64,000 bases of DNA, from NCBI RefSeq assembly GCF_021049265.1, contig NZ_CP088018.1, positions 2,790,001 through 2,854,000 on the forward strand. The letters run 5' to 3'. A program made the position numbers and the translations under genes. The notes beneath the pieces were generated by a model, which was not told the DNA's origin, made no database searches, and saw only the letters and a list, made by a program, of their open reading frames with translations. Within the stretch, counting starts at the first letter, position 1, and every line of letters begins with the position of its first letter. The stretch is from Ruania suaedae. Lineage in GTDB: Bacteria; Actinomycetota; Actinomycetes; Actinomycetales; Beutenbergiaceae. Of this stretch, positions 31,918 to 50,430 are shown piece after piece.

Positions 31918-32030
31918 CGTGTCCTCACTCGCAGAAAAGACTCCCAAGCCGAACACGGTCACGGTATCCTATTCATGCGCAGTTCATCCCGAGAATTCGC
32001 GGAATTTCCGGCTCTGACGAAGGAGTGCAG
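31918..32030. promoter_or_regulatory. Divergent promoter region between ACP1 and the acyl-AMP ligase
   Basis: 113 nt, relatively A/T-rich around TATCCTATTCATGCG (31965-31979). TATCCT (31965-31970) could serve as a -10 on the plus strand, and its complement AGGATA gives a weak match on the minus strand. The two halves of the module could thus be co-regulated. I see no clear operator. Confidence 0.3.
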
Positions 32031-33524
32031 GTGACCCAGCAATCCGCGAACGTCGGTGAGTATCTCCTGCAGCCTGCGCACGCGGACGAGGTCGCCGTCA
32101 TCGATCGAACGGGAGCGCACACCTATGCACACCTGCACGAGACGGTCCGGGTGCTGGCCCGGCGCCTCACGACATGGAACCTCGAGGCGGGTGCACGGAT
32201 CGGCCTGCTGAGCAGGAACTCGATGTTCTGGGCCGCCGCCTACCTCGCCATTCTGCGTTCAGGGCACGTCGTCGTGCCCCTTGCGACGACTCTGACACCT
32301 CAGGATGTGCTGCTCAAGGCGCAGTTCGTCGGCTGCGAGGCCTTCCTCGTCGACTCGACCCTGACGCGGCGCTTCGCCTCGGTCCTCTCGTCCGCGCGAC
32401 GTGTCGCCGACGAGACGGCGACGACCGATCCACAGCCGGGCGGACCGGACGTGATCCGTCCCGTCGACCCCGATGACGACGCGGTACTCGCCTTCACGTC
32501 CGGCACGACGTCGCGACCGCGCGCGGTGCGGGTGAGCCACCGGAACATCCAGGTGAACACCGATTCGATCGTCCGGTATCTGGATCTGCACGCCCGCGAC
32601 CGCATGCTCGTCGTCCTGCCGTTCTCCTACTGTTACGGCGCGTCGTTGCTCCACACTCACCTGCGCACCGGAGCCAGCCTCTCGATCTGCGACACCTTCG
32701 CCTTCCCGGAGACGGTGGTCGAGGCGATCCGACGCGACCGGTGCACCGGCATCGCCGGCGTCCCCTCCACCTATCAGCTGCTCCTGCGCGCCAGCTCCTT
32801 CGCGACCACCAGCCTGCCCACCTTGCGCACCATGCAGCAGGCAGGCGGACGATTGCCGCAGCCGCAGATCGACCGCCTCGCTGCCGCGCACCCCGGCGCG
32901 CGATTCTTCGTGATGTACGGCGCCACCGAGGCAACCTCACGCATGTCCTATCTTCCCCCCGAGCTGCGATGGGAGCGTCGGGGCTCGATCGGGCGAGGAC
33001 TCCCCGACGTCTCGCTGACCGTCATCGACGCCGCAGGCCATCGGGTCCGGCCCGGCGTCGTGGGCGAGATCTTCGCGCACGGTGCGAGCATCACCAAGGG
33101 CTACTGGAACGATCCCGCCGGTACAGCCGCGAAGTTCGTCGACGGCGGGCTGCGGACCGGCGACCTGGCCGAGGTCGACGACGACGGCTACATCTATATC
33201 GTCGACCGGCAGGATGACTTCATCAAGTCGTGGGGCTACCGCGTGTCCAGCCACGAGATCGAGGACACGGTGGTCGCCATCCCCGGGGTCAGCAGCGCCG
33301 CAGCGGTCGGGCGAGCCGACGACGACGCCGGCGAGGCGATCGTCGTGTTCTACGCGAGCCCGCCGGACGCCGCGATCACTCCGGAGGACGTCCTCGCCCA
33401 CTGCCGCGAGCGCCTGGCGCGGCATCTGGTGCCACACGAGGTACGACACCTTCCCGAGCTCCCGCTCAACCAGAACGGGAAGGTCCTGAAATCGGAGCTG
33501 AAATCGTTGGCCGCCGGTTCGTGA
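32031..33524 (+). CDS. Acyl-AMP ligase (ANL superfamily)
   Basis: A 497-residue adenylate-forming enzyme that would activate a carboxylic acid and pass it to a carrier protein or CoA. Motifs in order: FTSGTTSRPRAVRVSH (P-loop; the usual GxPKG is changed to SRPRA), YGATEATSRMSYLPPE, GDLAEVDDDGYIYIVDRQDD, KSWGYRVSSHEIE, and the C-terminal NQNGKVLKSELK with the catalytic Lys. The start GTG at 32031 lies 5 nt after AAGGAG; a GTG at 32025 overlaps that site and is less likely. The substrate is unknown; the adjacent ACP and AcpS point to a carrier-bound product. Confidence 0.87.
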   Translation: MTQQSANVGEYLLQPAHADEVAVIDRTGAHTYAHLHETVRVLARRLTTWNLEAGARIGLLSRNSMFWAAAYLAILRSGHVVVPLATTLTPQDVLLKAQFVGCEAFLVDSTLTRRFASVLSSARRVADETATTDPQPGGPDVIRPVDPDDDAVLAFTSGTTSRPRAVRVSHRNIQVNTDSIVRYLDLHARDRMLVVLPFSYCYGASLLHTHLRTGASLSICDTFAFPETVVEAIRRDRCTGIAGVPSTYQLLLRASSFATTSLPTLRTMQQAGGRLPQPQIDRLAAAHPGARFFVMYGATEATSRMSYLPPELRWERRGSIGRGLPDVSLTVIDAAGHRVRPGVVGEIFAHGASITKGYWNDPAGTAAKFVDGGLRTGDLAEVDDDGYIYIVDRQDDFIKSWGYRVSSHEIEDTVVAIPGVSSAAAVGRADDDAGEAIVVFYASPPDAAITPEDVLAHCRERLARHLVPHEVRHLPELPLNQNGKVLKSELKSLAAGS

Positions 33525-33546
33525 ACCCCGATCGAGGGAGCTGTCC

Positions 33547-33990
33547 GTGCACGGGCCCGACCTGATGACTGTCCTCGGCATCGGCACCGATCTCGTGGCC
33601 GTCGCACGGTTCGACCGGCTGATCGAGCGCGGCGGGCGCCGGTTCCTCGAGCGCTGGTTCGCCGAGGACGAGGTGGAGTACTGCCTCGCTCGCAGCGCAC
33701 CGGCGCCACACGCCGCGGCACGATTCGCGGCGAAGGAGGCGGTGTTCAAATCGCTGCGCATCCCCGGCGCCGGGCCTCCACGATGGCGTGAGATCGAGGT
33801 GACCCGGACCGCTGCGGGACTGCCAGGGGTGCGAGTGCACGGATCCATCCGGGACCTGGCCGAGCAGGCTGGAGTCGTGACCGTGCACCTGTCACTCTCC
33901 CACGACCGAACCTACGCGACGGCTACTGCGGTAGCTCTGACCATGGCTGCGGCAGCAACCGTCACTCCCCCGCGCCGTGACGACCAGTGA
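33547..33990 (+). CDS. Second holo-ACP synthase (AcpS-type)
   Basis: A 147-residue AcpS homolog. TVLGIGTDLVAVARFDRL and [13 protein letters not shown] carry the Mg ligands Asp and Glu, and LSLSHDRTYATATAVAL matches the C-terminal strand. It is longer than the housekeeping copy (118 residues). The GTG start at 33547 has GGGAG about 7 nt upstream; ATG 33565 is the alternative. It follows the ligase by 22 nt. Its tail overlaps the 3' end of the ABC exporter gene by 29 nt in convergent orientation. It probably primes the carrier proteins encoded at 31654 and 40743. Confidence 0.9.
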   Translation: MHGPDLMTVLGIGTDLVAVARFDRLIERGGRRFLERWFAEDEVEYCLARSAPAPHAAARFAAKEAVFKSLRIPGAGPPRWREIEVTRTAAGLPGVRVHGSIRDLAEQAGVVTVHLSLSHDRTYATATAVALTMAAAATVTPPRRDDQ

Positions 33991-35779
33991 TCTGATTCAC
34001 CTCGCGGAAGAAGTCGCTGCGCTGCATCAGGTCCTCGCGCGAGCCGATCGCCGAGACGCGGCCATCGACCATCACGACGATCCGGTCGCACACCGACAGG
34101 GTCGACAGCCGGTGGGCGATCAGGATGATCATGGTGTGCTGTTTGATCAGCCGGAGCGACTCCTGCACGAGTTCCTCGGAGCGGACGTCCAGCGCACTGG
34201 TCGGCTCGTCCAGCACGAGGACCTCCGGGTCTCCGGCCAACGCCCGTGCGAGACAGATCCGCTGGCGCTGCCCGCCGGAGACCGCACTGGCGCGTTGCCC
34301 GATGATCGTGTCGTAGCCCGAGGGCCAGGACATGACGTCATCGTGGATGTGCGCACGCCTCGCGGCTGCCACCACCTGGTCGTCGTCGATCCACTCGCGA
34401 TAGAAACGGATGTTCTCCCGGACGGTGCCCCAGACGACCTGCGAGGTCTGGGGAACGTAGGCGACCTTCGCCTGCCACTGTGACCGGCTGATCTCCCGGA
34501 CGTCGCGGCCGTTCACCCGCACGGCCCCCGAGTCGGGATCGCGCAATCGCAGCAGGAGCTGGACGATCGAGGACTTGCCCGCGCCGGAGGGGCCGACCAC
34601 GCCGATCGCCTCTCCCCGGCCGAGTTCGAAGCTGACGTCGTGCAGGACCTCCTGCCCGGCCCGATAGGCGAAGGTGACGTGCGAGAGCGCCAGGCTCTGG
34701 ATGCCGTCGAGGCTGTCGGGTCCGTCCTGCTGCGGACTGAGCCGATACCGCTCGAGCGCATCGACGATCTGGTTCATGAACGGCAGCCGCTCATCGATCC
34801 CGGTCAGCGAGAACTGGATCTGTTGAGCGTAGGTCAGTGCACGGATGAGCATCAGGATGACAGCAGCGAGTGCTGCGAGATGAGCCATGCCCGAGATCGA
34901 GATGGCGATCAGCGCAATCACCAGGAGCAGCAACGCGACGCTGTGGTACAGGGCGGGGACGACGACAGCCAGGAAGCGCGTCCGTGCGTGGGGCCGGCGG
35001 ACCTCCTCGACCTGATCGCGGAAACCGGACCGGTAGGTCTCGGTCGCGCCGAAGACCTCGGTCTCCTCGGCGATCAGGACGACTTCCTGGACGGTGTTCG
35101 TGAACTCCATCTCCTCGGTGCTCAGTTGCTTGGCGTGTCTGCGCAGCTTGCGCGACAACGGGCGGAGCGCGACGAACAGGATGAACGCCGAGGCCATGAG
35201 AGCGGCGGCCGCGACAAAGCTCTGCAGGAATGCGGCCACGACCATGGTGAGGAACATGATCGTCGCCGTCACCGCAAGAGCCAGGTTGATCACCGCTTGG
35301 GCCGCATTGGTGACGTTGCGCGTCATCAGCATCTGGAAAGCGCCGTCGCGCTCGCTCGCCTTCACCGACCAGGTGCTCGCCGTGAACGACTGGAAGAGCT
35401 GATTGCGCAGGTCGGCCAGGACTTTCGAACTCATCTGGGCCGGCACGTACGCGAGCCCGACCTGCAGGCCGGCACGAAGGAGCGCCATCGCGACGGCGAT
35501 GGCGAACGCAGCAGTGCGCGAGGTCTCCAGGGACAGGCTCCCGAACTGCTGGGTGATCGTCTGATCACCGACCGCGAGCGCCGCAGCCATCGCGGCGATG
35601 GCGGCGAGCAACCCGGCCTCGACGAGTCCCGTCACCACCGCCAGCGCGACCAGCAGGGCTATCCGGGTCCGAGATGCCTGGAAGAACGGGGAGAGCCGCC
35701 GCCAGGACCGGCGGACACGGAAGAGCGCGCGGATCGGGCCCGGGCGCGACCGGCCCTCACCCGCACCGGCGTCATTCAC
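33962..35779 (-). CDS. ABC exporter, fused permease and ATPase
   Basis: A 605-residue half-transporter. An N-terminal six-helix membrane domain (about residues 35-320) leads to an ATPase with Walker A GPSGAGKSS, Q-loop PQTSQ, signature AVSGGQRQR, Walker B VLVLDEPTSALD and H-loop AHRLS. A similar protein (LasD/McjD type) exports mature lasso peptides, and the lasso cluster lies about 5 kb away, but glycan or lipid export is equally possible here. It overlaps the acetyltransferase gene by 8 nt and AcpS by 29 nt. Confidence 0.87.
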   Translation of the reverse strand: MNDAGAGEGRSRPGPIRALFRVRRSWRRLSPFFQASRTRIALLVALAVVTGLVEAGLLAAIAAMAAALAVGDQTITQQFGSLSLETSRTAAFAIAVAMALLRAGLQVGLAYVPAQMSSKVLADLRNQLFQSFTASTWSVKASERDGAFQMLMTRNVTNAAQAVINLALAVTATIMFLTMVVAAFLQSFVAAAALMASAFILFVALRPLSRKLRRHAKQLSTEEMEFTNTVQEVVLIAEETEVFGATETYRSGFRDQVEEVRRPHARTRFLAVVVPALYHSVALLLLVIALIAISISGMAHLAALAAVILMLIRALTYAQQIQFSLTGIDERLPFMNQIVDALERYRLSPQQDGPDSLDGIQSLALSHVTFAYRAGQEVLHDVSFELGRGEAIGVVGPSGAGKSSIVQLLLRLRDPDSGAVRVNGRDVREISRSQWQAKVAYVPQTSQVVWGTVRENIRFYREWIDDDQVVAAARRAHIHDDVMSWPSGYDTIIGQRASAVSGGQRQRICLARALAGDPEVLVLDEPTSALDVRSEELVQESLRLIKQHTMIILIAHRLSTLSVCDRIVVMVDGRVSAIGSREDLMQRSDFFREVNQITGRHGAGE

Positions 35780-36506
35780 GGTGCGTGGTCGCTGTCGTCC
35801 CGCGTGCGCGGCCCGGGTCGGTGTCGTACCGGTCGATGAACACCTGGATATCGTCGGTCATCATGAACTCCATCGCCTCGATGAGCCGTTCCTCGCTCCA
35901 GTCCCACCACTTGATCCGCAACAGCGCCTCGATCTGAGCGGGGGGGAATCTGAAGCCGGCCACCCGGGCCGGGTTGCCTGCGACGATGGCGTAGGGCGGA
36001 ACGTTCTGGCGGACGACGCTCCCTGCTCCCACCACGACCCCGTCGCCGAGCGTGACGCCCGAGAGGATCACGCTCTCGTGCCCGATCCAGGCGTCGTTGC
36101 CGATCGCCACATCGCCGTGTGTGACCGATGTGCGGTCGGCGAGGTACCCGAACGAGTCACTGAAGGGTGGGTAGGCCGGAAAGCGGTAGGTGGACACATA
36201 GTCCACGCGGTGCTCACCCCCGAGGAGCACTCTGGTGCCGTAGGCCAAGGAACAGAACTGACCGATCCGCAGCATGCAACCGGGCGTTCGTGACGACACG
36301 ACGAGATGCCCCCACGTGTAGCGTCCGATGTCGTACTCGCGCAGATCAGACCGCTGATCCAGCCTGCTCGGCGGCGGCAGGGCGCCGGGGCGGCGCCGTT
36401 CCAGACGCCGTCGAAGCCTTCCGGCACCGGCTCGGAGCACACGTCCTGCACTCACCGTGGTACCGATCGCGAGCCACGACAGTCGATGGTGGTCGCGGCC
36501 GGACAT
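35772..36506 (-). CDS. Left-handed beta-helix acetyltransferase (CatB/WcaF type)
   Basis: A 244-residue hexapeptide-repeat acyltransferase. The repeats are at about residues 75-180 (for example LRIGQFCSLAYGTRVLLGG, DVAIGNDAWIGHESVILSGV and DGVVVGAGSVV), and YAIVAGNPARVAGFRF is the CoA-binding end of the xenobiotic acetyltransferase group. It probably O-acetylates a sugar or small molecule using acetyl-CoA. It is coupled to the ABC exporter by an 8-nt overlap. The first 50 residues are basic and variable, so the true start could be later. Confidence 0.86.
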   Translation of the reverse strand: MSGRDHHRLSWLAIGTTVSAGRVLRAGAGRLRRRLERRRPGALPPPSRLDQRSDLREYDIGRYTWGHLVVSSRTPGCMLRIGQFCSLAYGTRVLLGGEHRVDYVSTYRFPAYPPFSDSFGYLADRTSVTHGDVAIGNDAWIGHESVILSGVTLGDGVVVGAGSVVRQNVPPYAIVAGNPARVAGFRFPPAQIEALLRIKWWDWSEERLIEAMEFMMTDDIQVFIDRYDTDPGRARGTTATTHRE

Positions 36507-36678
36507 CGCCGGTTGACGCTGTGGTCCACAGTTCTCCTCACGCCCGTGGTGAGACCAGGGGCCATGAAGGCACCTGAGACCCCCAGGCTAGCCGAGCACA
36601 CGAATCCCGTCCCGAGTTCGGCCACAGTGGTTCGGGCGCACGGCCCACCGTCGCCACCAGGACAGCCGCGAGCGACGC

Positions 36679-36684
36679 TAGAAT
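36679..36684 (+). promoter_or_regulatory. -10 element for the APH-like kinase, probably leaderless
   Basis: TAGAAT ends 5 nt before the ATG at 36690, so transcription would start at the ATG. No ribosome site is present upstream. The -35 is weak. Confidence 0.4.
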
Positions 36685-36689
36685 CGTGC

Positions 36690-37742
36690 ATGCCCGCTCA
36701 CGGCCCAGCAGGGAGCCCGACCGCTGCTGAACGCGCCGTGCGGCGCGTCCTCGCCCGGTACGGCTTCGCCGACTCCTCCGTGGAACGCGTGGAGCCGTTA
36801 ACTCGACGGCTCAAGAACGAGAACTACCGCGTGCGCGCCGGCGACGCCGACTGGGTCGTCAAGTGCCATTCGTCCACGCCGGACCTGCAGCGCCTCGAGC
36901 TCGCCCAGACGTTGGAGAGGCGGCTCGCCGACGTCGGGTTCCCGGTGGCCCCGATCCAACAGTCCGACAGCGGTCACACTCTCGTCCAGGAGGGCGGCGC
37001 ACACTACTCGCTGCACGCCTGGGTCGATGGTCGGCAGACCACGATCGCAGAGCGGGATCGGGTGATCGCACGCCACCCGGGCTTCGTGCCCGGAATCGCC
37101 ACCGCGCTCGGCACGATGCATGCCGTCGCCGGCACTCTCCCTCGCCCTCCCGGCGAACCACCCGCGGCAAGAGCCGACGACCTGCTGACGGGACCCGCCC
37201 GCGCCTCCCGGCGGCTACGACGCCTTCGGCCACGCCCCCCGCTGCTCTCGGCGATGCACATGGTGCGCCTCAAGCCGGGAAAGTCGACCTTCGACCGATG
37301 GATCATCGGGAACCTCCCCGGCGTTGCCAGGTCGGCCGACCGGCTCGCCGCCCAGTCCCTGCGCACCTCGCCTGAGCCCATCGCGATCCACAACGACATC
37401 AACTGGGAGAACCTCATCTTCGATGAGGACTTCACCCTCCGGGCCCTGCTCGACTTCGACAATGCGATGTATGCACCGCCCGTCATCGAGGTCGGTGCGG
37501 CCGCCGTGGTACTCGTGGGAACGCAGCGCAGTCGAGTGGATGCATTCCTCGCGGCATACGAGGACGCCTCACACCGTCGCACGGACCGGGACGCCGTCGA
37601 GCTCGCGATGAGGGTGAAGTGCGCCCAATCCATCCTGAACTCGGTCGGTAGCCACCTCGCCGGTCGCGTCGGTGACCCGGACCTGCTGGCGTCGTGGTGT
37701 TCCCATCTCCTCGACTCACTACGCGAGCTGGAGCGGTGGTGA
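36690..37742 (+). CDS. Aminoglycoside-phosphotransferase-family kinase
   Basis: A 350-residue protein with the APH/choline-kinase fold. The catalytic loop AIHNDINWENLIFDEDF holds the HxDxxxxN signature, and RALLDFDNA supplies the metal-binding Asp. The N-terminal VEPLTRRLKNENYRV resembles the ATP-binding region of this fold. The target may be an alcohol on a small molecule, a sugar, or a resistance substrate; self-protection is possible but unproven. The start ATG at 36690 follows a -10 element directly. It is the only plus-strand gene between the acetyltransferase and the NadE-like gene. Confidence 0.82.
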   Translation: MPAHGPAGSPTAAERAVRRVLARYGFADSSVERVEPLTRRLKNENYRVRAGDADWVVKCHSSTPDLQRLELAQTLERRLADVGFPVAPIQQSDSGHTLVQEGGAHYSLHAWVDGRQTTIAERDRVIARHPGFVPGIATALGTMHAVAGTLPRPPGEPPAARADDLLTGPARASRRLRRLRPRPPLLSAMHMVRLKPGKSTFDRWIIGNLPGVARSADRLAAQSLRTSPEPIAIHNDINWENLIFDEDFTLRALLDFDNAMYAPPVIEVGAAAVVLVGTQRSRVDAFLAAYEDASHRRTDRDAVELAMRVKCAQSILNSVGSHLAGRVGDPDLLASWCSHLLDSLRELERW

Positions 37743-37775
37743 GCCGGAGCGCGCCACCGGGGGCGGGTTCACGGC

Positions 37776-38756
37776 TCACACCTCCGGGACGTCCCCGGCC
37801 AGGACGGGTTCCAGATGCAGGTACTCGGTGGCCCGGCGCTTCTGCTCGATGTCGCGGAACACCCGGTCGACCTGTGTCACCGTGAGACCGGCGGCACGGG
37901 CGATCTCCTCCTGCGGCACGTCGTTGTTCTTCCCGTACAGGCACAGGTCCATCTGCTCGTGCGGGAGCGAGAAGTAGAACTCCTCCTGCGACTGGGGCAG
38001 CGAGTAGGTGTCGGTGGTGGAGGGACGCATCCTGATCTCCTCCGGCACCCCCAGGTGTGCGGCGAGGGCGTAGACCTGGCTCTTGTACAGGTGCGCGATC
38101 GGCTTGACGTCCGCAGCCCCGTCGCCCAGCTTGACGAAGAAACCCTGGTCGTACTCCAGCCGGTTCGGTGTGCCCGCCACCGCGTAGTTCAGCCGGTCGG
38201 CGTGGTAGTACTCCAGCATCTTGCGCACCCGCTGCTTGAAGTTGGTCGCGGCGACGATCCCCAGATAGGCCTCCCGCGTCAACCGGTACTGCTGCTGCCG
38301 GCCGTCGGGGTCGAGCACCACGACCGAGTAGAGCCGGTAGCTGTCGGAGTCCACGACCGAGGGCAGTACGATCTTCGATCGGTAACCGGGCCCGTACTCC
38401 GGGCAGACGAGCCGGATGGCCTCGTCCCGGCGGGCATAGGCCCCGACGGCGTCCAAGGTCGCCGAGATCTCCTCGACCACCGAATCGACCCCGAAGGCAT
38501 CGGACAGACTCGTGCTGATCCTGAGGGTCTCGGGCGAGGACTCCCGCTCGGGCATGTGGATACCGAACACCCGTTCCGGGCCGAGGCCGCGGCACGCGAG
38601 CGCGGCGACCACGCTGGAGTCGATGCCGCCCGAGAGCGCGACGACCAGGCCCTTTCTCCGGGTCCGCGCGAGGTAGGCGGTGAGGCGCTCACCGATGGCG
38701 GTGGCCGCCGCTTCGAGGTCGAGGTCGAGGGACTCCCGGCCGAAGGACTGCGTCAT
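37776..38756 (-). CDS. NAD synthase-like (NadE) adenylating amidotransferase
   Basis: A 326-residue ATP-pyrophosphatase. The P-loop is ALSGGIDSSVVAA (near residues 40-52). The substrate-binding NFKQRVRKMLEYYHADRL, GTPNRLEYDQGFFVKLGDG and KPIAHLYKSQVYALAAHLG segments follow NadE family patterns closely. It has no glutaminase domain, so it would use free ammonia or ammonia from a partner. It lies in the same direction as, and 10 nt after, AsnB (38767-40743) and a carrier protein, so it may amidate a pathway acid instead of making NAD. Classic NadE cannot be excluded, as this window shows no other nadE. Confidence 0.82.
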   Translation of the reverse strand: MTQSFGRESLDLDLEAAATAIGERLTAYLARTRRKGLVVALSGGIDSSVVAALACRGLGPERVFGIHMPERESSPETLRISTSLSDAFGVDSVVEEISATLDAVGAYARRDEAIRLVCPEYGPGYRSKIVLPSVVDSDSYRLYSVVVLDPDGRQQQYRLTREAYLGIVAATNFKQRVRKMLEYYHADRLNYAVAGTPNRLEYDQGFFVKLGDGAADVKPIAHLYKSQVYALAAHLGVPEEIRMRPSTTDTYSLPQSQEEFYFSLPHEQMDLCLYGKNNDVPQEEIARAAGLTVTQVDRVFRDIEQKRRATEYLHLEPVLAGDVPEV

Positions 38757-38766
38757 CTTCTGTCTC

Positions 38767-40743
38767 CTACCCGTGCACCAGATCGGTCACTGTCATGGGG
38801 GCCGCCGGCGCCCGATCCTGATCCGACGAGGCGTCGCCGGCGATGAAGTGTCGGTGGATGAGCTGGGTCGAGAGCACGGCGAGGATCCGCATGTTGTCGG
38901 TGTTACTCATCCGCACTCCCCCTGTCCGGCGGCACTTGCCGACCAGCGCGGCGACGGCCCGCGGCTCGAAGACACCCGCGGCCGCGACCGCGTCGCCGGA
39001 GGTGACCTGGTCGACCCATGGCTGCCCCCTGCCCGCGAAGAAGCTGGCGGCGTCCGGTGCGCGGTAGGGCTGCTTGGGCCGGGAGAGGATCCGTTCCGGG
39101 ACCAGGTCCCGGAACGCCGTCTTGAGGATGTGCTTCTCGCTGAGCCCGAGCAGCTTGTGGCGGGCCGGCAGGCGGTTGGCGAGGTCGACCACGTCCGGGT
39201 CGAGGAAGGGGAAACGGCCTTCGACCGAATGCGCCATCAGCATCCGGTCGCCCTGCGCCGCGAGGATGTAGCCCGACAGCAGCGTGGACATCTCCAGCCA
39301 TTGCGCGCGGCTGAGCGGGTCCCACTCCCGGTGACCGGAGGGCATACGCGCGAGGAGCGGTCCGGAGACGTCGGCATCCCAGTCGGGGTGCGGGACGGTC
39401 ATCCGCAATAGTGCCGCGCTGGTGTCCCATCGTGTCCGGTGGGACATGGCCGGGTCGGCGGTATCGAGGTGACGCCCGAAGAACTCCCGCGCGAAGGCCG
39501 GTACCTGACCCGGTGAGCGGGTCAGCCACGGGTACAGCAGCTCCAGACCGCGCGCCCGGACGGTCGAGGCCGGGTTCCTCGCCACGAACTCCCGCAGACG
39601 TGCCTCGCGAAAGAGGTCGTAGCCGGCGAAGACCTCGTCCGCACCTTCGCCGGTGACCACGACCTTGTACCCGTGGTCCTGAGCGAGGCCGGAGAGCAGG
39701 AACATCGGCGCGGGCGCGGAGCGGAGCACCGGCATCTCGGCATGGCGCACCACCTCAGGGAAGACCGCGCCGATATCCTCGGCACGGACGGTCACCTCGT
39801 GGTGCTCGGTGCCGAGGTGGTGCGCCATCGTGGCCTGGAAGGGCCCCTCGTCGAAATCTTCGTCGGCGAACCGGAGCGAGAAGGTCTGCAGCGGCGCCTC
39901 GGTGTAGGCCGCGATCACCGCCGCGGTGATCGCGGAGTCGAGCCCACCGGACAGGTACGCGCCCACCGGGACGTCGCTGCGCAGGAACCGCAGCCGGACC
40001 GCCGCGATGACGCGTTCGCGCACGTCGGCGGCGTTGCGCTCGAGGTCCTGCGGTTCCTCGCCGCCCCGAGGCGGGAACTCGGGCTGCCAGTACGGCACCG
40101 TCCGGTGGCTCCGCTCGTCCACGAAGGCGACGTGCCCTGGCGGGAGCTGTTCGATCCCCGAGAACACCGTGCGGGGGGCGACCGGGCTCCAGAACGTCAT
40201 CGTCTCGGCCAACCCGAGACGATCGAAGGCCCGGGGCACGCGGGGATCGGCGAAGAGCGCCTTCACCTCGGAGGCGAACAGCAGCCGGCCTCCCACCCGC
40301 GTCAGGTACAGCGGCCTCACTCCGAGACGATCCCTGGACAGGATCAGGCGCCGCCGGTCCCGTTCCCAGATCGCGAGCGCCCACTGGCCGTTGAACCGGG
40401 GGAAGCACCCCTCCCGCCACTGCTCCCACGCGTGCAGGATCACCTCGGTGTCGCTGCTGGTCCTGAACCGGTGGCCGAGAGCGAGCAGCTCGCGGCGCAG
40501 CTCGATGTAGTTGAAGATCTCACCGTTGAAGGTGACCCAGACCGAGCCGTCGCCGTTTCCCATCGGCTGCGCGCCGCCGCCGACGTCGATGATCGCCAGT
40601 CGCGCGTGACCCAGGCCCACGTGGTGGTCGCGGTAGATGCCACTGCCGTCCGGGCCCCGATGGGGCAGCCGGGAGAGCATCCGGGTGAGGAGCGCGAGAT
40701 CCGGGGCACTGTCGAAGGAGAGCTCCCCGACGATGCCGCACAT
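38767..40743 (-). CDS. asnB: Asparagine synthase (glutamine-hydrolysing), carrier-protein-linked copy
   Basis: A 658-residue class II amidotransferase. Cys2 in MCGIVGELSF, LPHRGPDGSG and FNGEIFNYIE are intact glutaminase motifs. The synthetase domain has LSGGLDSAITAAV (Ser replaced by Ala after the SGGxDS core) and TGEGADEVFAGY. It is longer than the housekeeping type. The start ATG shares one base with the ACP2 stop (TGATG), so it is translated together with that carrier. It is unlikely to be the lasso cyclase because its glutaminase is intact and the lasso genes have their own partner, but it could supply ammonia to the NadE-like enzyme. Confidence 0.88.
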   Translation of the reverse strand: MCGIVGELSFDSAPDLALLTRMLSRLPHRGPDGSGIYRDHHVGLGHARLAIIDVGGGAQPMGNGDGSVWVTFNGEIFNYIELRRELLALGHRFRTSSDTEVILHAWEQWREGCFPRFNGQWALAIWERDRRRLILSRDRLGVRPLYLTRVGGRLLFASEVKALFADPRVPRAFDRLGLAETMTFWSPVAPRTVFSGIEQLPPGHVAFVDERSHRTVPYWQPEFPPRGGEEPQDLERNAADVRERVIAAVRLRFLRSDVPVGAYLSGGLDSAITAAVIAAYTEAPLQTFSLRFADEDFDEGPFQATMAHHLGTEHHEVTVRAEDIGAVFPEVVRHAEMPVLRSAPAPMFLLSGLAQDHGYKVVVTGEGADEVFAGYDLFREARLREFVARNPASTVRARGLELLYPWLTRSPGQVPAFAREFFGRHLDTADPAMSHRTRWDTSAALLRMTVPHPDWDADVSGPLLARMPSGHREWDPLSRAQWLEMSTLLSGYILAAQGDRMLMAHSVEGRFPFLDPDVVDLANRLPARHKLLGLSEKHILKTAFRDLVPERILSRPKQPYRAPDAASFFAGRGQPWVDQVTSGDAVAAAGVFEPRAVAALVGKCRRTGGVRMSNTDNMRILAVLSTQLIHRHFIAGDASSDQDRAPAAPMTVTDLVHG

Positions 40744-40946
40744 CAGGCCCGGCCGGGGAGCGCCTGCAGGAGCGACTCGACCGACTCGCGACGACCGAGA
40801 TCGGCCGGGTTCATCACCTCGTCCGGGAGCGTCACACCACAGCCGTCCTCGATGGCCACCGCGATCTCGATCGCCTCGAGCTGGCTCGCCCCGGGCCCGA
40901 GCGGGAGCGAGAGCTCGGACAGGATGCGGCGTCGTCGAGCGGTCAT
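40743..40946 (-). CDS. Acyl carrier protein (2), short and atypical
   Basis: A 67-residue carrier-like protein. GPGASQLEAIEIAVAIEDGCG aligns with the ACP attachment region, placing the likely phosphopantetheine site at Ser21 (ASQL instead of DSL). The rest (LPDEVMNPADLGRRESVESLL) is ACP-like. Only about 20 residues precede the serine, so helix I is shortened; a longer version with an upstream ATG (41039) is possible but lacks a good ribosome site, whereas GGAG lies 8 nt before 40946. It is coupled to AsnB by 1 nt. Confidence 0.7.
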   Translation of the reverse strand: MTARRRRILSELSLPLGPGASQLEAIEIAVAIEDGCGVTLPDEVMNPADLGRRESVESLLQALPGRA

Positions 40947-41123
40947 CCGATCTGCTCCATCCCAGCGTCGTGGCGGGCACAGTCTAGTGAGGGAAAGAAT
41001 GACACAACCCCGCGAGGCCGGCACGGAGTTCGTCACCATTCCTCCTGTCCGGCCGGAGTCGATGCGCTACATTCCGCAAAGAGGTCCGGTGCGGTGCCCA
41101 CCGTCGAGGAACGGGAGTCGTTG

Positions 41124-41405
41124 ATGAGACTGCGAGCGCAGGACGTGAGCTGGCGGGAGATCGACGGCGAGATGGTGCTCCTCGACCTGCGCACGTCGAC
41201 ATACCTCACCGCCAACCGCGTCGGCACCCTACTGCTGCGGCTGCTCTCGGAGCACGAACGCACGGTCGACGAACTCGCCGACGCGCTGGTGACCGAGTTC
41301 GAGATCCCGCGATCGAGAGCGCAGGCGGACGTCGAGGCGTTCATCGCCGATCTTCGCACCCGGAAGCTGCTCGCGGGAGTCGACCCGGCGGACGATCCCA
41401 CGTGA
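41124..41405 (+). CDS. Lasso peptide leader-binding protein (PqqD/RRE, B1 type)
   Basis: A 93-residue winged-helix RiPP recognition element of the PqqD family. LRAQDVSWREIDGEMVLLDL then STYLTANRVGTLLLRLL is the PqqD signature, with the later LADALVTEFEIPRSRAQADV helix region. It would bind the precursor leader and hand it to the protease. I prefer ATG at 41124 (GGGAG about 7 nt upstream); GTG at 41094 would add 10 residues. The stop overlaps the protease start (GTGA). It is divergent from the ACP2-AsnB operon. Confidence 0.9.
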   Translation: MRLRAQDVSWREIDGEMVLLDLRTSTYLTANRVGTLLLRLLSEHERTVDELADALVTEFEIPRSRAQADVEAFIADLRTRKLLAGVDPADDPT

Positions 41406-41824
41406 TCCCCGTCCGCGAGCTCACCGCCGCCACCGCAGCGGCCCTGTGCGCCTGCGCGGTGGAGGTCTGCCTGCGCACCCTTCCACTGCCACGCACCGCG
41501 CGGATCTTCGGGGTGTCGCTGCGGACCACCGGCGGGAGCACGGTGGCCCCACGACAGGCGGTGCTGGGCCGGCGCGGGCGCCTGCAGGCGCGCGCCGTGC
41601 AACGGGTGATGCGTCACTGGCCGTTCGACGACACCTGCCTGCGGCACGCCCTCGTCGCGGGCCATCGGCTGCGGCGCTTCGGGCCCGAGCTGGTCATCGG
41701 CGTGACGAAGGTGGACGGAGCCGTCCGGGCGCACGCCTGGTTGGAGTTCGACTCCGGCATCTACGATCCGCTCGGCGCGGCTCCGGCCTATCACCCGCTC
41801 ACCTCCAGCCCGCCGGAGGGGTGA
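41402..41824 (+). CDS. Lasso peptide leader peptidase (B2, transglutaminase-like Cys protease)
   Basis: A 140-residue protein of the lasso B2 family, which cuts off the leader. The catalytic Cys79 lies in DDTCLRHALVAGHRL, and His111 in RAHAWLEFDSG, with the nearby acid (Glu115 or Asp117) completing the triad. Length and spacing match stand-alone B2 proteins. It starts at GTG 41402 inside the RRE stop codon and overlaps the kinase by 1 nt, so the three plus-strand genes form one tight operon. Confidence 0.9.
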   Translation: MIPVRELTAATAAALCACAVEVCLRTLPLPRTARIFGVSLRTTGGSTVAPRQAVLGRRGRLQARAVQRVMRHWPFDDTCLRHALVAGHRLRRFGPELVIGVTKVDGAVRAHAWLEFDSGIYDPLGAAPAYHPLTSSPPEG

Positions 41825-42867
41825 TGGCGCTCGCGTCGCTGTACGGGCTGGTGGTCGACAGCGAGATCGACCTGAAGCTGGAGCAGCGCCCCGCCGACGC
41901 AGCTCCCGACATCCGGATCCGGATGGTCGCACCGATGGCGGCCACACGGGAGCGTCCGGCCGGGCGCACGCTCCTGCACCGGCAGACCGAGGACGAGGAC
42001 CTCTTCACCGCCGTGCGCACCCGGGAGGGCTACCTCGTCCGCTTCTACCGGACCTGCGACTTCTCGATCGACGCGGACCTGCGCATCGTCGAGGCACGCC
42101 TGGTCCACGGCGCCGACCCGGACACCGTCGGGGTGCTGATCTGCGGCACACTGCTCTCGTTCATGCTCGCCATGCGCGGCGAACCCGTGCTGCACGCCAG
42201 CGCGGTGGAGATCGACGGCGTGGCAGTGGCCTTCGTGGGCAGCTCCGGGATGGGCAAGTCGACCATGGCCACCGTGATGTGCGCACACGGCGGGCGGCTG
42301 ATCACCGACGACGTGCTCCGCCTCGATCTCGGTCCCGAGTCCGGTCCGGCCCGCCCGCGCTGCTTTCTGGGCGGCGCCTCGCTCCGGCTGCGCAAGGCCG
42401 CCGGCGATCTCTCCACGCTCTTCGGATCCCCACCGGCACATCGCACCACCGGCGACGGCCGGGCGGCGCTCTCGATGGCCCCCTCGACGGCGGAGGGGCT
42501 CCCGCTCGAGGCGATCGTGATCCCGGTACCGAACCACGACCCCGCCCTCGCGGGACCGGAGCTTCTCCGGCTCAGCCGCACTCAGGCGCTGCTCGCCCTC
42601 CTGCAGTTCCCCCGGATCGTCGGCTGGGAGGACGCCACCGTCCTCGACCGCCAGCTACAGGACATGGGGGCGATCGCCGCTACCGTGCCGCTCCACGTCG
42701 CCCGGGTCCCCTGGGGCCCTCCCTTCTCGCCCACCCTGGCCGCGGAACTGATGGCCGCACTGGCTCAGCCGCGGCCTGCGACCGGTCCGACCCCGGCCCC
42801 ACCCCCGCCTGGTGCAGCCAGGCCATCTGCGCCAGGAAGAAGCTCGCCGGATGCGGTCGGGGGCTGA
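41824..42867 (+). CDS. HPr-kinase-like lasso peptide kinase
   Basis: A 347-residue protein with the HPr kinase fold in its second half. HASAVEIDGVAVAFVGSSGM leads into the Walker A GSSGMGKST (about residues 139-147), and GGRLITDDVLRL matches the following HPrK segment. HPrK-like enzymes in lasso clusters (paeninodin type) phosphorylate the C-terminal Ser of the precursor; here the precursor ends in Ser. The ATG overlaps the protease stop by 1 nt. The C-terminal 30 residues are Pro-rich and probably disordered. Its last 188 nt overlap, on the opposite strand, the cyclase gene. Confidence 0.82.
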   Translation: MALASLYGLVVDSEIDLKLEQRPADAAPDIRIRMVAPMAATRERPAGRTLLHRQTEDEDLFTAVRTREGYLVRFYRTCDFSIDADLRIVEARLVHGADPDTVGVLICGTLLSFMLAMRGEPVLHASAVEIDGVAVAFVGSSGMGKSTMATVMCAHGGRLITDDVLRLDLGPESGPARPRCFLGGASLRLRKAAGDLSTLFGSPPAHRTTGDGRAALSMAPSTAEGLPLEAIVIPVPNHDPALAGPELLRLSRTQALLALLQFPRIVGWEDATVLDRQLQDMGAIAATVPLHVARVPWGPPFSPTLAAELMAALAQPRPATGPTPAPPPPGAARPSAPGRSSPDAVGG

Positions 42868-43945
42868 GCCACTCGGCCCGCAACCGCTCCTCGTCCACGA
42901 AGTCCGGATCGAACCCACCGGGCTGGAACTCACGGGCGAACGCGCGCTCCCGCTCCCCCCACCGGGAGGAGTTGAAGGCCGCCTTGCTCCGCCGGGCGAG
43001 CACCTCATCCGGCAGCAGATCCGAGCCGAGGCGGCGGAACAGGCTGGTGCGTCCGCGGAACCCCCAGGCACCACCCTCCCGGGCGAGTGCCCCGACGACG
43101 GGCGCCTCGGCGAGCGGATGGCGCATCCGGAGGCCGTACTCGGCAGCGCTCACCACCGCGTTGTCCAGTCCGAGCCTCGTCGCTCGCTGATCGAAGTCCG
43201 CCCAACACGAGGCGTCCCAGCGCAACGGGCCCCGGAGCGCCGCCTCGTCCGCGGCGAGAATCTCCCGGGCCGCCGGCCGTAGCCACGGCAGCAGGTCGGG
43301 GTCGGCCCAGCGGCGACGGACCTGGCGACGCAGGAGAGCACCCGGCGCCAGCGACATGGCCGCTGCTCGGACGAGCGCGCCGCTCGGACGTCTCCGGCCC
43401 CCGTGGACCAGTAGATGGAGGGGGGTGATCCGGCGGCCCTCCACGAAGATGTCCCCGCCCTCGCCGGTGAGGATCGTGCCCGGATCGAGCTGTTCGAAGA
43501 ACAGCGGTTGCGTGTGCACCGCCTCGGGCCACACCAGACCGCGCCGGCGGAGGTGACGCGTGGCCAGGTCGCCCAGCGTCGAACGCTGATCGGTCACCGG
43601 CAGGACGATGCGCTCGGTCAGGCCGAGGTGGCCGAGGACGAGCGCCTGCCACGAGCTCTCGTCGGCACGCTCGTCGCCGGGGTACACGGCGGTCACCGGG
43701 ATCGGGAGCGGCGCGCCGACGAGCCGGGCCGCCCGCGTCGCCAGGGCCAGCACCAGCGAGGAATCACGTCCGCCGGAGAAGAGCACGTAGCAGGGCCCGG
43801 CCCCGAGTGCCCCGGCGACAGCCTGCTCCAGGGCCGCGCGGGTACTGAGCCGGCCGTCAGCGCGGCGCACCTCACGCGAGGGTGGCATCGCACCCAGCGG
43901 AGCCGCGACCGCACGCTCGCGGGCGGTCAGGCGCTGGTAGGACAT
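42680..43945 (-). CDS. Lasso peptide macrolactam synthetase-like (asparagine synthase C-terminal domain only)
   Basis: A 421-residue protein with the AsnB ATP-pyrophosphatase fold: SGGRDSSLVLAL (P-loop, residues 57-63), and TGEGGDIFVEG at about 160. It begins with about 50 unrelated residues instead of the class II glutaminase domain, so the usual Cys2 domain is absent. It lies directly downstream of the precursor gene (93 nt), so it is the best cyclase candidate, forming the ring amide by adenylating an Asp side chain. ATG at 43945 has GAGGCGGGG upstream. The last 188 nt overlap the convergent kinase gene; the conserved part ends before most of that overlap. Confidence 0.78.
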   Translation of the reverse strand: MSYQRLTARERAVAAPLGAMPPSREVRRADGRLSTRAALEQAVAGALGAGPCYVLFSGGRDSSLVLALATRAARLVGAPLPIPVTAVYPGDERADESSWQALVLGHLGLTERIVLPVTDQRSTLGDLATRHLRRRGLVWPEAVHTQPLFFEQLDPGTILTGEGGDIFVEGRRITPLHLLVHGGRRRPSGALVRAAAMSLAPGALLRRQVRRRWADPDLLPWLRPAAREILAADEAALRGPLRWDASCWADFDQRATRLGLDNAVVSAAEYGLRMRHPLAEAPVVGALAREGGAWGFRGRTSLFRRLGSDLLPDEVLARRSKAAFNSSRWGERERAFAREFQPGGFDPDFVDEERLRAEWLSPRPHPASFFLAQMAWLHQAGVGPGSDRSQAAAEPVRPSVPRPGWARREGPRGPGRRGAAR

Positions 43946-43994
43946 CCCCGCCTCACCCACGTGCGTTCGCCCGCTCATGCCCGCACGGGCACCA

Positions 43995-44029
43995 GCGCGC
44001 CGCGTGCCGGACAACGGCACGCGGCGCGC
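43995..44029 (-). terminator. Strong hairpin between lasso precursor and cyclase genes
   Basis: A perfect 15-bp inverted repeat (GCGCGCCGCGTGCCG / CGGCACGCGGCGCGC, loop GACAA on the plus strand) begins 10 nt after the precursor stop. Because there is no T tract, it may act as a partial terminator or RNA stabiliser so that precursor message exceeds cyclase message, as is common in RiPP operons. Confidence 0.65.
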
Positions 44030-44038
44030 AGTGGGTGA

Positions 44039-44179
44039 TCAGCTGAACTCACCCGGTGCCGGCAGGGTGATCCTCCAGAGCCGGATCTCATCCGACCAGT
44101 CCTGCAGGTTCGCCCCGCCCAGAGTCATCTCGCGCACGCTACCCACTTCGGTGAGCGTGGGAGCCTCATATTTTCCCAT
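44039..44179 (-). CDS. Lasso peptide precursor
   Basis: A 46-residue precursor. The leader contains YEAPTLTEVGSVREMT, an exact fit to the lasso leader motif YxxPxLxxxGxxxxxT. With Thr at -2, cleavage would fall after Leu20 and give a 26-residue core starting GGANLQDWSD and ending APGEFS. Gly1 could close a ring on Asp7; if cleavage were one residue later, Asp9 would be available instead. The C-terminal residue is Ser, matching the adjacent HPr-kinase-like gene. The ATG at 44179 has GAGG 5 nt upstream; an in-frame ATG at 44197 lacks a ribosome site. It lies directly after a T-tailed terminator, so it has its own promoter. Confidence 0.88.
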   Translation of the reverse strand: MGKYEAPTLTEVGSVREMTLGGANLQDWSDEIRLWRITLPAPGEFS

Positions 44180-44291
44180 GCGTCCTCTACCCTTCATGCT
44201 CGTGGTTCGGGCCACGCCTCCTGGGCGGACGCCCAAGCGGTGAGTTCGACACTAGGAGCAACGGGGTTCTCGCACCCGGGTGATCCAGGGG

Positions 44292-44339
44292 TGAAAAAAC
44301 CGGCTCGTCCGCCCTCACCCCGGGGTGAGGGCGCCGGTT
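44292..44339 (-). terminator. Rho-independent terminator after the nucleotidyltransferase
   Basis: An 11-bp perfect stem (GCCCTCACCCC / GGGGTGAGGGC, 44311-44332) is extended by AACCGGC/GCCGGTT and followed on the minus strand by six Ts (44294-44299). The nucleotidyltransferase stop codon lies within the base of the stem. It isolates the precursor gene from upstream transcription. Confidence 0.9.
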
Positions 44340-45466
44340 CAGCACCCCGGACCGGCCGCCGCCTCGACCCGCGCGAGGTAGAGCTCGAGCGCACGGTCAT
44401 CGGCCAGGACTCGGTCGCCGGGCACTGGGGGCCTCCGGACCAGCACGTGCCGGACGACGCTGCGAGACGAGCCGGCGGCGGTCCGGGCCGCCCCCGGTGC
44501 TACCGCCCGGGCGACGAGGCGGGCCAGTCCCGGCTCCTGTCGCGCCCGATCGACGGGGGCGAGGCGCCCGACACCGGCAGTGAGCGCCCGGAACGCCCAG
44601 GACATGGGCAGGGTGCGTCCCATCTCCTCCGGGAGGTCGCCGCCGAGCGTGTCGCGGGCGCGGAGCAGCACGAGGCAGACGTGCGGCGCCACCTTCCAGG
44701 CACGGGCCCGTCGTCCGACCTCGCCCCAGTCGGTGACGCGTGCCGCCATCCGTTGCGCGTCCACCAGGTAGAGCAGCCGATTGGCGCCGGTCAACGCGGC
44801 GTGCAGGCAGACGTGGATGAAGCCGTCCTCCGGGTCGAGCGTCCACCCGGTGGAGAAGCCGAGACGGATCGGCACCCGCCGGGCGAGCAGCTGCTCGGTG
44901 GGCACGGCGAGCGTCCGGCGACGTTCGGCCATGTTGATCATGGACCAGTGCAGATCCACGAGCACGCCAGACGGGCTCCGCCAGTGCATCTCACCCGGCG
45001 CCTGAGGATTGCGCAGCATGTCGTCGAAGTCGGCAACCGTCCATCCCGCCTCCCGCAACCGCGTGCTGACCGTCCGCAGATCGCCGGCGGCGACGAGCAG
45101 GTCGAGATCCTTGTAGCTGCGCAGGCCCACGACGGGGTGGGCGAGCTCGGACAGGACCGGACCCTTGAACACCGCCCAGGGGACGCCGTCGAGCAGGTCA
45201 CCGACGTGCCCCAGCAACGTGGTGACGTGCAGATGCATCGCCGCCGCCCGGTCCCGGTCCGGCCGGAGCAGGTGCCCGAGCGCGGGTTGGCTGTCGCGGA
45301 GGAGGACGTGGGCCAGGGGTGCCAGCCGGTGGAACCGCACGGCGCCGAGGAACTCCTCCGGATCGGCGGCGACCTCGCGCGCGAGGGCGGGGGTCTCGCC
45401 CCGGGCGATCGAGACGAGGCTGTGGGAGATCGCGTGCTGCTGCCTGCTCGCGGTACCGCTCCACAT
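44339..45466 (-). CDS. Nucleotidyltransferase-family protein of the lasso cluster
   Basis: A 375-residue protein of the nucleotidyltransferase-fold family found next to lasso or PqqD/HPr-kinase clusters. The GVPWAVFKGPVLSELAHPVV segment and LRSYKDLDLLV (DxD metal site) are typical of the fold. The role is not established; I recall that in the pseudomycoidin cluster a similar protein acts with the kinase on the C-terminal phosphate. The start ATG has GGAGGAGC about 8 nt upstream. It ends in a strong terminator, so it is transcribed apart from the precursor. Confidence 0.75.
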   Translation of the reverse strand: MWSGTASRQQHAISHSLVSIARGETPALAREVAADPEEFLGAVRFHRLAPLAHVLLRDSQPALGHLLRPDRDRAAAMHLHVTTLLGHVGDLLDGVPWAVFKGPVLSELAHPVVGLRSYKDLDLLVAAGDLRTVSTRLREAGWTVADFDDMLRNPQAPGEMHWRSPSGVLVDLHWSMINMAERRRTLAVPTEQLLARRVPIRLGFSTGWTLDPEDGFIHVCLHAALTGANRLLYLVDAQRMAARVTDWGEVGRRARAWKVAPHVCLVLLRARDTLGGDLPEEMGRTLPMSWAFRALTAGVGRLAPVDRARQEPGLARLVARAVAPGAARTAAGSSRSVVRHVLVRRPPVPGDRVLADDRALELYLARVEAAAGPGC

Positions 45467-48921: not shown

Positions 48922-50430
48922 TCAGTACGCTCCCCTACCCCCGAGGACTGCTCGGACGGTCCGCCACAGGATGGTCAGATCCATCATCACGCTCCAGTTG
49001 TCGACATACCGCAGATCCAGCCGCAGCGACTGGGCCCACGACAGATCCGACCGGCCGCTGACCTGCCACAGGCCGGTCAGCCCGGGCTTGACCCGCAGCC
49101 GCTGGATGGCGTCGTGATCGTAGGTGGCGACCTCCTCACCGAGCGGGGGGCGCGGGCCGACCAGCGACATGTCCCCGCGGACCACGTTCCACAGCTGGGG
49201 CAGCTCATCGATGGACATCCGCCGGAGCAGCCTGCCCACCGGTGTGACCCGGGGGTCCTCGCGCATCTTGAACAGGACCGCGTTGCCCTCGCTCGACGCC
49301 AGCAGCGCGGCCCGGGCCCTGTCGGCGTCCACATGCATCGTGCGCAGCTTGATCATGGTGAAGGGCGCTCCGTCCAAGCCGGTGCGCGTCTGCCGGTAGA
49401 ACGCCGGCCCCGGTGAGGAGGCCCGTACGAGCACCGCGCTGATGGCCAGTACCGGCAGCGCCATGACGAACAGCACCACGCCGAGGGTGCGGTCGAGGAC
49501 CGATTTCGCGGCCCGCCTGGGCCGGCCAGCCCCGATGTCGACGGTGAGGAGCGGAGTTCCGCCGACCGAGTGGAGCCTGACGCGCTCACGTACGACGTCG
49601 TCCATGTGCGGGGCGACGACCAGCTCGATGTGGTGGCGCTCGAGCTGCCAGCAGAGTCTGCGCAGCTCGACGGCGCTGACGGTGCCCGCCGCGACGACGA
49701 CCGTCGAGATGCCGTGCTCGACCACGATGTCGGTCACCCGCTCAAGGGTGCCCAGCACCGGCGCGCCTCGCCAGTCGCCGTCCCGCGCAGGGGCCGCCGG
49801 CAGACTGGCCCCGATGATCTCGAAGCCGAGCTCCGGATCCGAACGGAAGAGGTCGACGAGCGGGTCCAGCTGCCCAGGAGCCCCGACGAGCAGAGTCCGC
49901 CGGAGCGAGTGCCCGCGACGACGGCGACGCCTGAGCAGCGCCAGTTGCACCCGCCGGCTCAGGACGACAGCAGCCAGGGTGCCGGCGATGGCGGCCACCA
50001 GTGGCACCGGCGGTACCTCGACCGACCCCAGGAAGGCGAGACCGATCAGCAATGAGGCCCATGCCCATCCTGCCCGGAGGACGCCGCGATAGCGGTCGCT
50101 ACCCATCATCGCGCGGCGGCTGTCATATCCGTGGACCATTGCGATCGCGGCCGCGAACACGAGACCGGCGCCGGTCGGGCCACCGATCAGCAGTCCCACC
50201 GATGCCACGGAGGACCGCATCGCGATCGCGATCATGAGGGCTGCGATCATGGCGTCGCCGATGGGCAGTGCCCACCGGTACGCGTGACTCCAGGTGCGTT
50301 CTGGCTCGATCGTCGAACGAGCGCCGGTCCTCAGTTCAGCCAGTGAGATCGGGACGGTAGGCCCGGGGGAAAGCACCGACCCGCGAGACGAACGATGCAC
50401 GCCGACCTTGATCACCTGGTCAAGCGACAC
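48922..50430 (-). CDS. Undecaprenyl-phosphate sugar-phosphate transferase (WbaP/polyprenyl glycosylphosphotransferase)
   Basis: A 502-residue initiating transferase. The N-terminal half has about four hydrophobic helices, then a CoA-binding-like domain, and the C-terminal third is the bacterial sugar-transferase domain: LDRTLGVVLFVMALPVLAIS (reentrant helix), KLRTMHVDADRAR, RMSIDELPQLWNV and VGPRPP, with VKPGLTGLWQVSGRSDL near the end. It starts the repeat unit by moving a sugar-1-phosphate onto the lipid carrier. GTG at 50430 has GGGAGGTGAG about 8 nt upstream. It should feed the glycan built by the GTs at 21094-31654. Confidence 0.92.
   Translation of the reverse strand: MSLDQVIKVGVHRSSRGSVLSPGPTVPISLAELRTGARSTIEPERTWSHAYRWALPIGDAMIAALMIAIAMRSSVASVGLLIGGPTGAGLVFAAAIAMVHGYDSRRAMMGSDRYRGVLRAGWAWASLLIGLAFLGSVEVPPVPLVAAIAGTLAAVVLSRRVQLALLRRRRRRGHSLRRTLLVGAPGQLDPLVDLFRSDPELGFEIIGASLPAAPARDGDWRGAPVLGTLERVTDIVVEHGISTVVVAAGTVSAVELRRLCWQLERHHIELVVAPHMDDVVRERVRLHSVGGTPLLTVDIGAGRPRRAAKSVLDRTLGVVLFVMALPVLAISAVLVRASSPGPAFYRQTRTGLDGAPFTMIKLRTMHVDADRARAALLASSEGNAVLFKMREDPRVTPVGRLLRRMSIDELPQLWNVVRGDMSLVGPRPPLGEEVATYDHDAIQRLRVKPGLTGLWQVSGRSDLSWAQSLRLDLRYVDNWSVMMDLTILWRTVRAVLGGRGAY

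Follow-up and report, generated by a model that had tools for sequence, protein, structure and literature searches.

The lasso peptide gene cluster described here lies in the genome of Ruania suaedae, a single contig of 3.56 Mb, of which a stretch of 64,000 nucleotides (bases 2790001-2854000), referred to below as the window, was analysed. The cluster comprises six genes, given here with their positions in the window:

41124-41405, plus strand: B1, a discrete, PqqD-like recognition element (RRE) of ribosomally synthesized and post-translationally modified peptides (RiPPs), for leader binding (PF05402, 65.9 bits, cut-off 23.4)
41402-41824, plus strand: B2, a transglutaminase-like leader peptidase (NF033537, 58.3 bits, cut-off 33; PF13471, 52.8 bits, cut-off 26)
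41824-42867, plus strand: K, a putative Ser kinase of the fold of HprK and phosphoenolpyruvate carboxykinase (PEPCK), assigned from its predicted fold and invariant residues, with a Pfam score below the cut-off
42680-43945, minus strand: C, a minimal lasso cyclase consisting of the Asn_synthase domain alone (PF00733, 62.9 bits, cut-off 21)
44039-44179, minus strand: A, the precursor, with leader ...YEAPTLTEVGSVREMTL and the 26-residue core GGANLQDWSDEIRLWRITLPAPGEFS (NF033521, 31.4 bits, cut-off 19)
44339-45466, minus strand: N, a nucleotidyltransferase of the NTP_transf_5 family (PF14907, 122.4 bits, cut-off 31.2)

An earlier note on this DNA, made from the sequence alone, had placed six genes here, and all six were found at those positions. 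Five of them (RRE, B2, cyclase, precursor and nucleotidyltransferase) score above the cut-off of a curated family model, the kinase below. The RRE and B2 calls of that note held under homology scoring with PF05402, NF033537 and PF13471; the lasso-specific PqqD model NF033530 gave B1 58.3 bits and did not reach its own cut-off of 70. Its AsnB-like cyclase is supported by PF00733, an SGGRDS site, Lys321 and the predicted fold, and its HPr-kinase-like gene by a predicted fold of HprK/PEPCK type and an invariant His-Lys-Asp-Asp set, with the curated cut-offs missed. The leader motif that it had read, YxxPxLxxxGxxxxxT, fits the window leader YEAPTLTEVGSVREMT, and the core ends in Ser as it had stated (terminus EFS).

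The genes form two convergent units, with B1-B2-K on the plus strand and N, A and C, in that order, on the minus strand. The frames of K and C overlap tail to tail by 188 bases (42680-42867). There is a single copy of the precursor in the whole genome of 3.56 Mb. Precursor neighbours in other Micrococcales, for which the earlier note had advised a search, are found in two further genomes of the family (G007 and G009), which have near-identical cores, the same gene arrangement, cyclases 70-75% identical to that of the window and corresponding overlaps of 212 and 98 bases; the family also holds Occultella and Pseudactinotalea and counts as Micrococcales in the sense of the note. These near-identical cores and the shared arrangement argue that the cluster is not a chance assembly, and at the level of sequence it is confirmed as a genuine gene cluster for a lasso peptide. 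The overlapping tail of C is poorly conserved.

Two other assignments were considered and ruled out. A full-length AsnB at 38767-40743, beside NAD synthase, scores 495 bits with the glutamine-hydrolysing asparagine synthase model TIGR01536 and was discarded as the lasso cyclase. A reading of K and the RRE as an HPr-rel-A/exosortase system was discarded because TIGR04352 and TIGR04353 stay below cut-off (K reaches 31 bits with TIGR04352, HPr-rel-A, far short of 200) and because the locus has B2, C and a lasso leader.

By gene content the cluster is of an ordinary kind; its lineage differs in the architecture of the cyclase and probably also in the size of the ring. The window cyclase is 421 residues long, with 35 residues ahead of the Asn_synthase domain, no match to a glutaminase model and no room for an N-terminal domain of glutaminase type. 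Its SGGRDS site and Lys321 are invariant in the alignment. The predicted structure (predicted local distance difference test, pLDDT, 91.0) resembles a series of larger enzymes, mainly in their C-terminal synthetase part: hydroxyamidotransferase 7ylz (Z 19.0), the human asparagine synthetase (Z 17.3), carbapenam synthetase (Z 16.1), beta-lactam synthetase (Z 16.4) and asparagine synthetase B (Z 14.7). Beta-lactam synthetase and asparagine synthetase B, which share the predicted synthetase-domain fold of the window cyclase, carry an N-terminal glutaminase or glutaminase-like domain. Bacillus lasso cyclases are also longer than the window cyclase.

The short architecture recurs among relatives. 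The Asn_synthase model matched all 17 cyclases of this group that were scanned and a glutaminase model none, the N-termini of these 17 being mostly trimmed to a start codon near the domain. Among 90 relatives' cyclase frames read from stop to stop, fewer than 150 codons precede the domain profile in 78 and fewer than 60 in 48, and the glutaminase half of the window's AsnB matched none of the 90. The other 12 stay open for at least 150 codons ahead of the domain, which we attribute to chance, the DNA being rich in GC.

Canonical actinobacterial lasso clusters (A, C, B1, B2, D) share with the window the leader motif, a discrete B1, B2 and an AsnB-type cyclase. Those of the same order were represented by nine control genomes with a B2 match outside the window's cyclase group. 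In five control loci the cyclase frames span 531-642 codons, read stop to stop with start codons not called, with about 140-210 residues between the first Met and the domain. None of the nine control loci matched the K or N profile, both built from the window's lineage, and one control with B2 below cut-off (G392) showed no lasso genes at all. In this sample, therefore, the short cyclase accompanies K and N, whereas the long cyclase does not. The five long control cyclases matched neither a glutaminase domain in Pfam nor the glutaminase half of the window's AsnB; their extra N-terminus may be a vestigial glutaminase. No report of short, single-domain lasso cyclases was found in the literature searched, which most subscription papers lie outside. 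At about 400 residues and one domain, such a cyclase would lend itself more easily to structural work and engineering.

Within the genus, 2 of 8 genomes have a cyclase of the window type; the family has 8 such genomes among 24 and the order 20 among 396, each count including the window's own genome. In a pattern scan of named genomes, the best 80 matches, corresponding to 78 distinct loci, all belong by their titles to Actinomycetota, among them Georgenia, Isoptericola, Jiangella, Tessaracoccus, Nocardioides and metagenome-assembled genomes (MAGs) labelled Acidimicrobiia and Solirubrobacterales. For comparison of gene content, 88 dereplicated loci were chosen by their cyclase, several of them cut by contig ends, after removal of ten copies of named loci; three chance leader matches (L023:17381, L040:14020 and L082:11580) were removed before cores and loci were counted. 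Profile matches were obtained for B1 in 76 and B2 in 74 of these loci (above 40 bits) and for K in 80 and N in 63 (above 100 bits). A leader match is present in 79, and B1, C, K and N occur together in 59. The loci were divided into a strong-kinase class (n = 50) and the rest, with a weak kinase match or none (n = 38).

The position of the putative acceptor residue follows the cyclase lineage. Counted from the conserved Thr at position -2, an acid stands at position 10 in 15 of the 53 distinct cores of the strong-kinase class. All 15 begin with Gly1, and position 2 is occupied by nine different residues (G, K, L, R, W, S, A, D and Q). Further acids in this group lie at position 8 in one core and at position 9 in three, and five cores have none at positions 7-9. 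The 13 labelled cyclases of the Asp10 type all fall to one side of a branch (Shimodaira-Hasegawa-like approximate likelihood ratio test, SH-aLRT, 94). On this tree, from which one cyclase with a bad frame (L086) and one label (L052) were dropped, the registers Asp9 (23), Asp10 (13) and Asp13 (3) require two changes, the minimum, against 13.6 when shuffled. The spacing from Gly to Thr in the leader is identical in all cores of both groups, under a search that allowed one residue either way; the spacing from Tyr to Gly was fixed by the search pattern. In Georgenia satyanarayanai (G151; loci L030 and L045), which has a single detected B2, an Asp10-type and an Asp8/Asp9-type precursor are each accompanied by their own cyclase and kinase. 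If this sole detected peptidase cuts both leaders alike, the ring sizes would differ.

The Gly1/Asp10 pattern predicts a natural ten-residue macrolactam; its simplest reading would be a ring larger by one residue and a cyclase lineage adapted to closing it. Lasso rings are given as seven to nine residues (PMC8498205, PMC5067487), and the ten-residue ring that was found in print is an analogue made with the in vitro system for fusilassin/fuscanodin (PMC8498205). Neither natural ten-residue rings nor Asp10 acceptors were found in the same body of searched literature. Since the Gly1/Asp10 clade is paired with a cyclase clade of its own, what sets ring size becomes testable by swaps of cyclase and precursor.

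Natural pairings of different registers were also observed. The two Georgenia sets lie on one contig, the Asp10-type core ending in GSR and the Asp8/Asp9-type core in GS; between them a single B1, a single B2 and a single N were detected. In Cellulosimicrobium arenosum (L043:3871-11790), an Asp13-type precursor with two Cys and an Asp10-type precursor are accompanied by two short cyclases and by one copy each of K, N and, as far as detected, B2. The latter locus is a natural test of whether the ring register follows the cyclase or the peptidase.

The assignment of K draws on structure prediction and conserved residues. Its AlphaFold model (pLDDT 92.1, from an alignment of 37 rows) matches PEPCK over 272 residues (Z 15.9, root-mean-square deviation 4.6), the VIA rows being headed by PEPCK and not by HprK, and matches HprK in Foldseek with an E-value of 3e-5. 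The sequence profile matches HprK at 4e-5, and P-loops of the ATP-binding cassette (ABC) type score equally well. All 45 rows of the alignment keep His124, Lys145, Asp162 and Asp163. Lasso kinases are described as having an essential His-Lys-Asp-Asp set (PMC9266682), to which these residues may correspond. Predicted fold and conservation support the reading of K as an HprK-like kinase. In N, Lys101-Gly102, Asp120 and Asp122 are identical in 41 of 41 rows. PsmN, the nucleotidyltransferase of the pseudomycoidin cluster, belongs to the same Pfam family (PF14907).

The C-termini of the cores are consistent with a Ser kinase. Among the 53 distinct cores of the strong-kinase class, found with a leader pattern that ignores the C-terminus, 44 end in Ser, nine in Ser-Arg and none otherwise. 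In the class with a weak kinase match or none, 25 of 38 cores end in Ser, one in Ser-Arg and 12 otherwise.

Like the window, the cluster for pseudomycoidin (psm, Bacillus pseudomycoides) has a kinase of HprK type and a gene annotated as a nucleotidyltransferase beside its lasso genes. The terminal Ser of the peptide is phosphorylated by PsmK, and one or two hexoses are added via PsmN (PMC9266682, PMC8498205). PsmN is needed for the hexoses on the phosphate, and PMC9266682 leaves open whether it is itself the glycosyl transferase. In contrast to pseudomycoidin, the window locus is actinobacterial, with a cyclase of a single synthetase domain, a conserved Asp10, convergent units and no exporter in the cluster. 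In the paeninodin family (PadeK, ThcoK), as in the window, the core ends in Ser, and the kinase has an essential set of His, Lys, Asp and Asp (PMC9266682). Paeninodins are called restricted to Bacillota in PMC13381572, whereas the window lineage spans Actinomycetota.

The gene set A, B1, B2, C, K and N corresponds to that of pseudomycoidin and paeninodin, which makes phosphorylation of the C-terminal Ser, followed by N-dependent addition of a sugar, the best reading. In the proposed pathway, B1 would bind the YxxP leader and K would phosphorylate the terminal Ser26, a step expected first because PadeK acts on the precursor before cyclisation (PMC9266682). B2 would then cleave the leader one residue past the conserved Thr, and C, as a stand-alone synthetase domain of AsnB type, would adenylate Asp10 and join it to the amino group of Gly1, a closure that would yield a ten-residue macrolactam. 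N would cause the phosphate to carry a sugar, as PsmN does in pseudomycoidin, and the donor might be dTDP-rhamnose or a different sugar nucleotide of the adjacent polysaccharide locus. The last place given to the sugar is a guess, and the chemical steps, their order, threading, ring size and sugar identity are all matters that we infer. We regard this pathway as a whole, leading to a phosphorylated or phosphoglycosylated lasso peptide with a Gly1-Asp10 ring, as having about an even chance of being correct. A broader proposal is more tentative and falls a little short of an even chance: the window would represent a phosphoglycosylated actinobacterial branch with stand-alone synthetase-domain cyclases, in which cyclase lineages set the ring, with nine residues in one clade, ten in that of the window and perhaps more in a third, so that natural rings would not be limited to seven to nine.

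The earlier note had likewise proposed phosphorylation of the terminal Ser and a further C-terminal modification through the nucleotidyltransferase. The first proposal agrees with the PsmK/PsmN precedent and with the terminal Ser or Ser-Arg of all 53 strong-class cores, and the second is made plausible by the PF14907 match and the analogy with PsmN. The note overlooked the single synthetase domain of the cyclase, the clade-conserved Asp10 and the missing exporter. The cluster it had called complete does contain A, B1, B2, C, K and N; an exporter is lacking.

Several observations weigh against the proposed pathway. Frames and family scans revealed no exporter gene between 41124 and 45466, and the sequence scores of K miss the curated kinase cut-offs, with PF07475 giving 30.3 bits, slightly short of 33.3. 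The profile search did not detect N in 25 of the 88 loci, some of which lie on short contigs. The Asp10 group was sorted on Asp10, so that its 15 of 15 for this residue holds by construction, which is not the case for Gly1 or the tree. The window core also contains Asp7, which would allow a seven-residue ring, and an acid occupies position 7 in seven of the 15 cores. Finally, a leader boundary that can move is suggested by the Asp13 group (three cyclases; one of the cores is GYPQNCKYGHGADN), and this weakens counting from Thr.

A movable boundary is also what the main rival calls for. B2 would cut one residue later, after Thr-Leu-Gly, the core would start at Gly2, and Asp10 would close a nine-residue ring. 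Rings of nine are normal, and one published case departs from the Thr rule (PMC10368454). However, the invariant Gly at position 1 beside a variable position 2, the constant Gly-to-Thr spacing of the leader in both groups and the single detected B2 for both precursor types in G151 argue against a later cut, and we consider it unlikely, if still deserving of attention. Retaining Gly1 and closing the ring at Asp7, with Asp10 kept for some other purpose, for example the plug or kinase recognition, would suit the window and its nearest relatives, which are among the seven cores with Asp7 or Glu7; eight cores of the same cyclase clade have no acid there, and this arrangement appears improbable.

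Readings without a lasso product fare less well. Clusters for linear polyphosphorylated peptides in Bacillota share the RRE, kinase and NTP transferase and have no cyclase (PMC13381572), and a linear product or another RiPP, with C not cyclising, could be imagined by comparison. The B2 peptidase and a conserved cyclase with SGGRDS, the invariant Lys321 and a predicted synthetase fold make this very improbable. That the cluster has decayed and makes no product might be suggested by the missing exporter and the convergent overlap of K and C, but all frames are open, the motifs are intact, and layout and overlap are kept in G007 and G009 at 70-75% cyclase identity; we give decay hardly any credence. 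The Gly1-Asp10 lasso peptide remains our preferred reading.

Polysaccharide genes lie near the cluster, including:

48922-50430, minus strand: polyprenyl glycosylphosphotransferase (TIGR03025, 386 bits, cut-off 296), the genome's only PF02397 match

This sugar transferase lies on one flank together with genes of dTDP-rhamnose type (PF00483; PF16363; PF00908 fused to PF04321). The other flank (30905-41039) encodes a small acidic protein along with an acyl ligase, an ABC exporter, an acetyltransferase, NAD synthase and the full-length asparagine synthase. In G009 the counterparts of NadE and AsnB show 81% and 80% identity, and both proteins have relatives next to the lasso cluster of Pseudactinotalea terrae.

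The earlier note's siting of the cluster in a polysaccharide locus is strengthened by recurrence of this setting. Of the 20 genomes of the order with a short cyclase, 12 have a PF02397 gene no more than 30 kb from the cluster, against 0.57 expected at random; by genus the count is six of eight, against 0.54 expected. These genomes carry one to five PF02397 genes each, and genomes or genera were treated as independent. The exceptions are four Occultella genomes (g7), three Isoptericola genomes (g18) and G151, in which the contig ends close to the cluster. In the control genomes PF02397 is near the B2 locus in none of nine, only four of which have PF02397 at all. Paeninodin-type lasso clusters often stand beside capsular polysaccharide loci in Bacilli, where a biofilm role is offered as untested speculation (PMC13381572), and in rumen Firmicutes glycosyltransferase genes adjoin kinase-bearing lasso clusters (PMC7533575). 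That kinase-type lasso clusters are found next to exopolysaccharide genes in a second phylum as well points tentatively to a function at the cell surface, rather than to placement by chance.

Two further features bear on transcription and export:

44284-44345, minus strand: terminator-like hairpin (RNA fold -32 kcal/mol, z -2.5) with a U6 tract, located where the N gene ends and upstream of A
33962-35779, minus strand: ABC exporter near the cluster (PF00005), a possible but unproven export pump

Given the hairpin, A and C are probably transcribed apart from N. A consensus scan returned no sigma-70-type promoter, and the hairpin is not among its entries either. The ABC protein is only 27% identical to one member of the exporter group accompanying relatives. 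This group of exporter-type frames has members in 36 of the 50 strong-kinase loci and none in the window cluster; it came from an all-against-all neighbour comparison in which antisense shadow frames predominated, and the two members that were scanned proved to be ABC proteins.

Some cores and precursors depart from the common pattern. The nine Ser-Arg (GSR) cores belong to loci L030, L031, L032, L033, L046, L050, L065 and L071, and their cyclases, or named copies of these, form one eight-row branch inside the Asp10 clade. Either the kinase accepts the penultimate Ser in these cores or the Arg is trimmed. In the weak-kinase class, for example in L104, L107, L109 and L111 (Blastococcus, Modestobacter, Nocardioides), K lies on the strand opposite C. 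Cores of this class have a conserved Asp-Gly and, by the Thr rule, often begin with Gln or Arg, for which reason the rule may fail there. In an Acidimicrobiia MAG (L089:6556-6892), four mini-precursors stand in tandem next to a short cyclase, an RRE and a weak K match; their leaders are of the YxxP type, and their cores are only 10-13 residues long.

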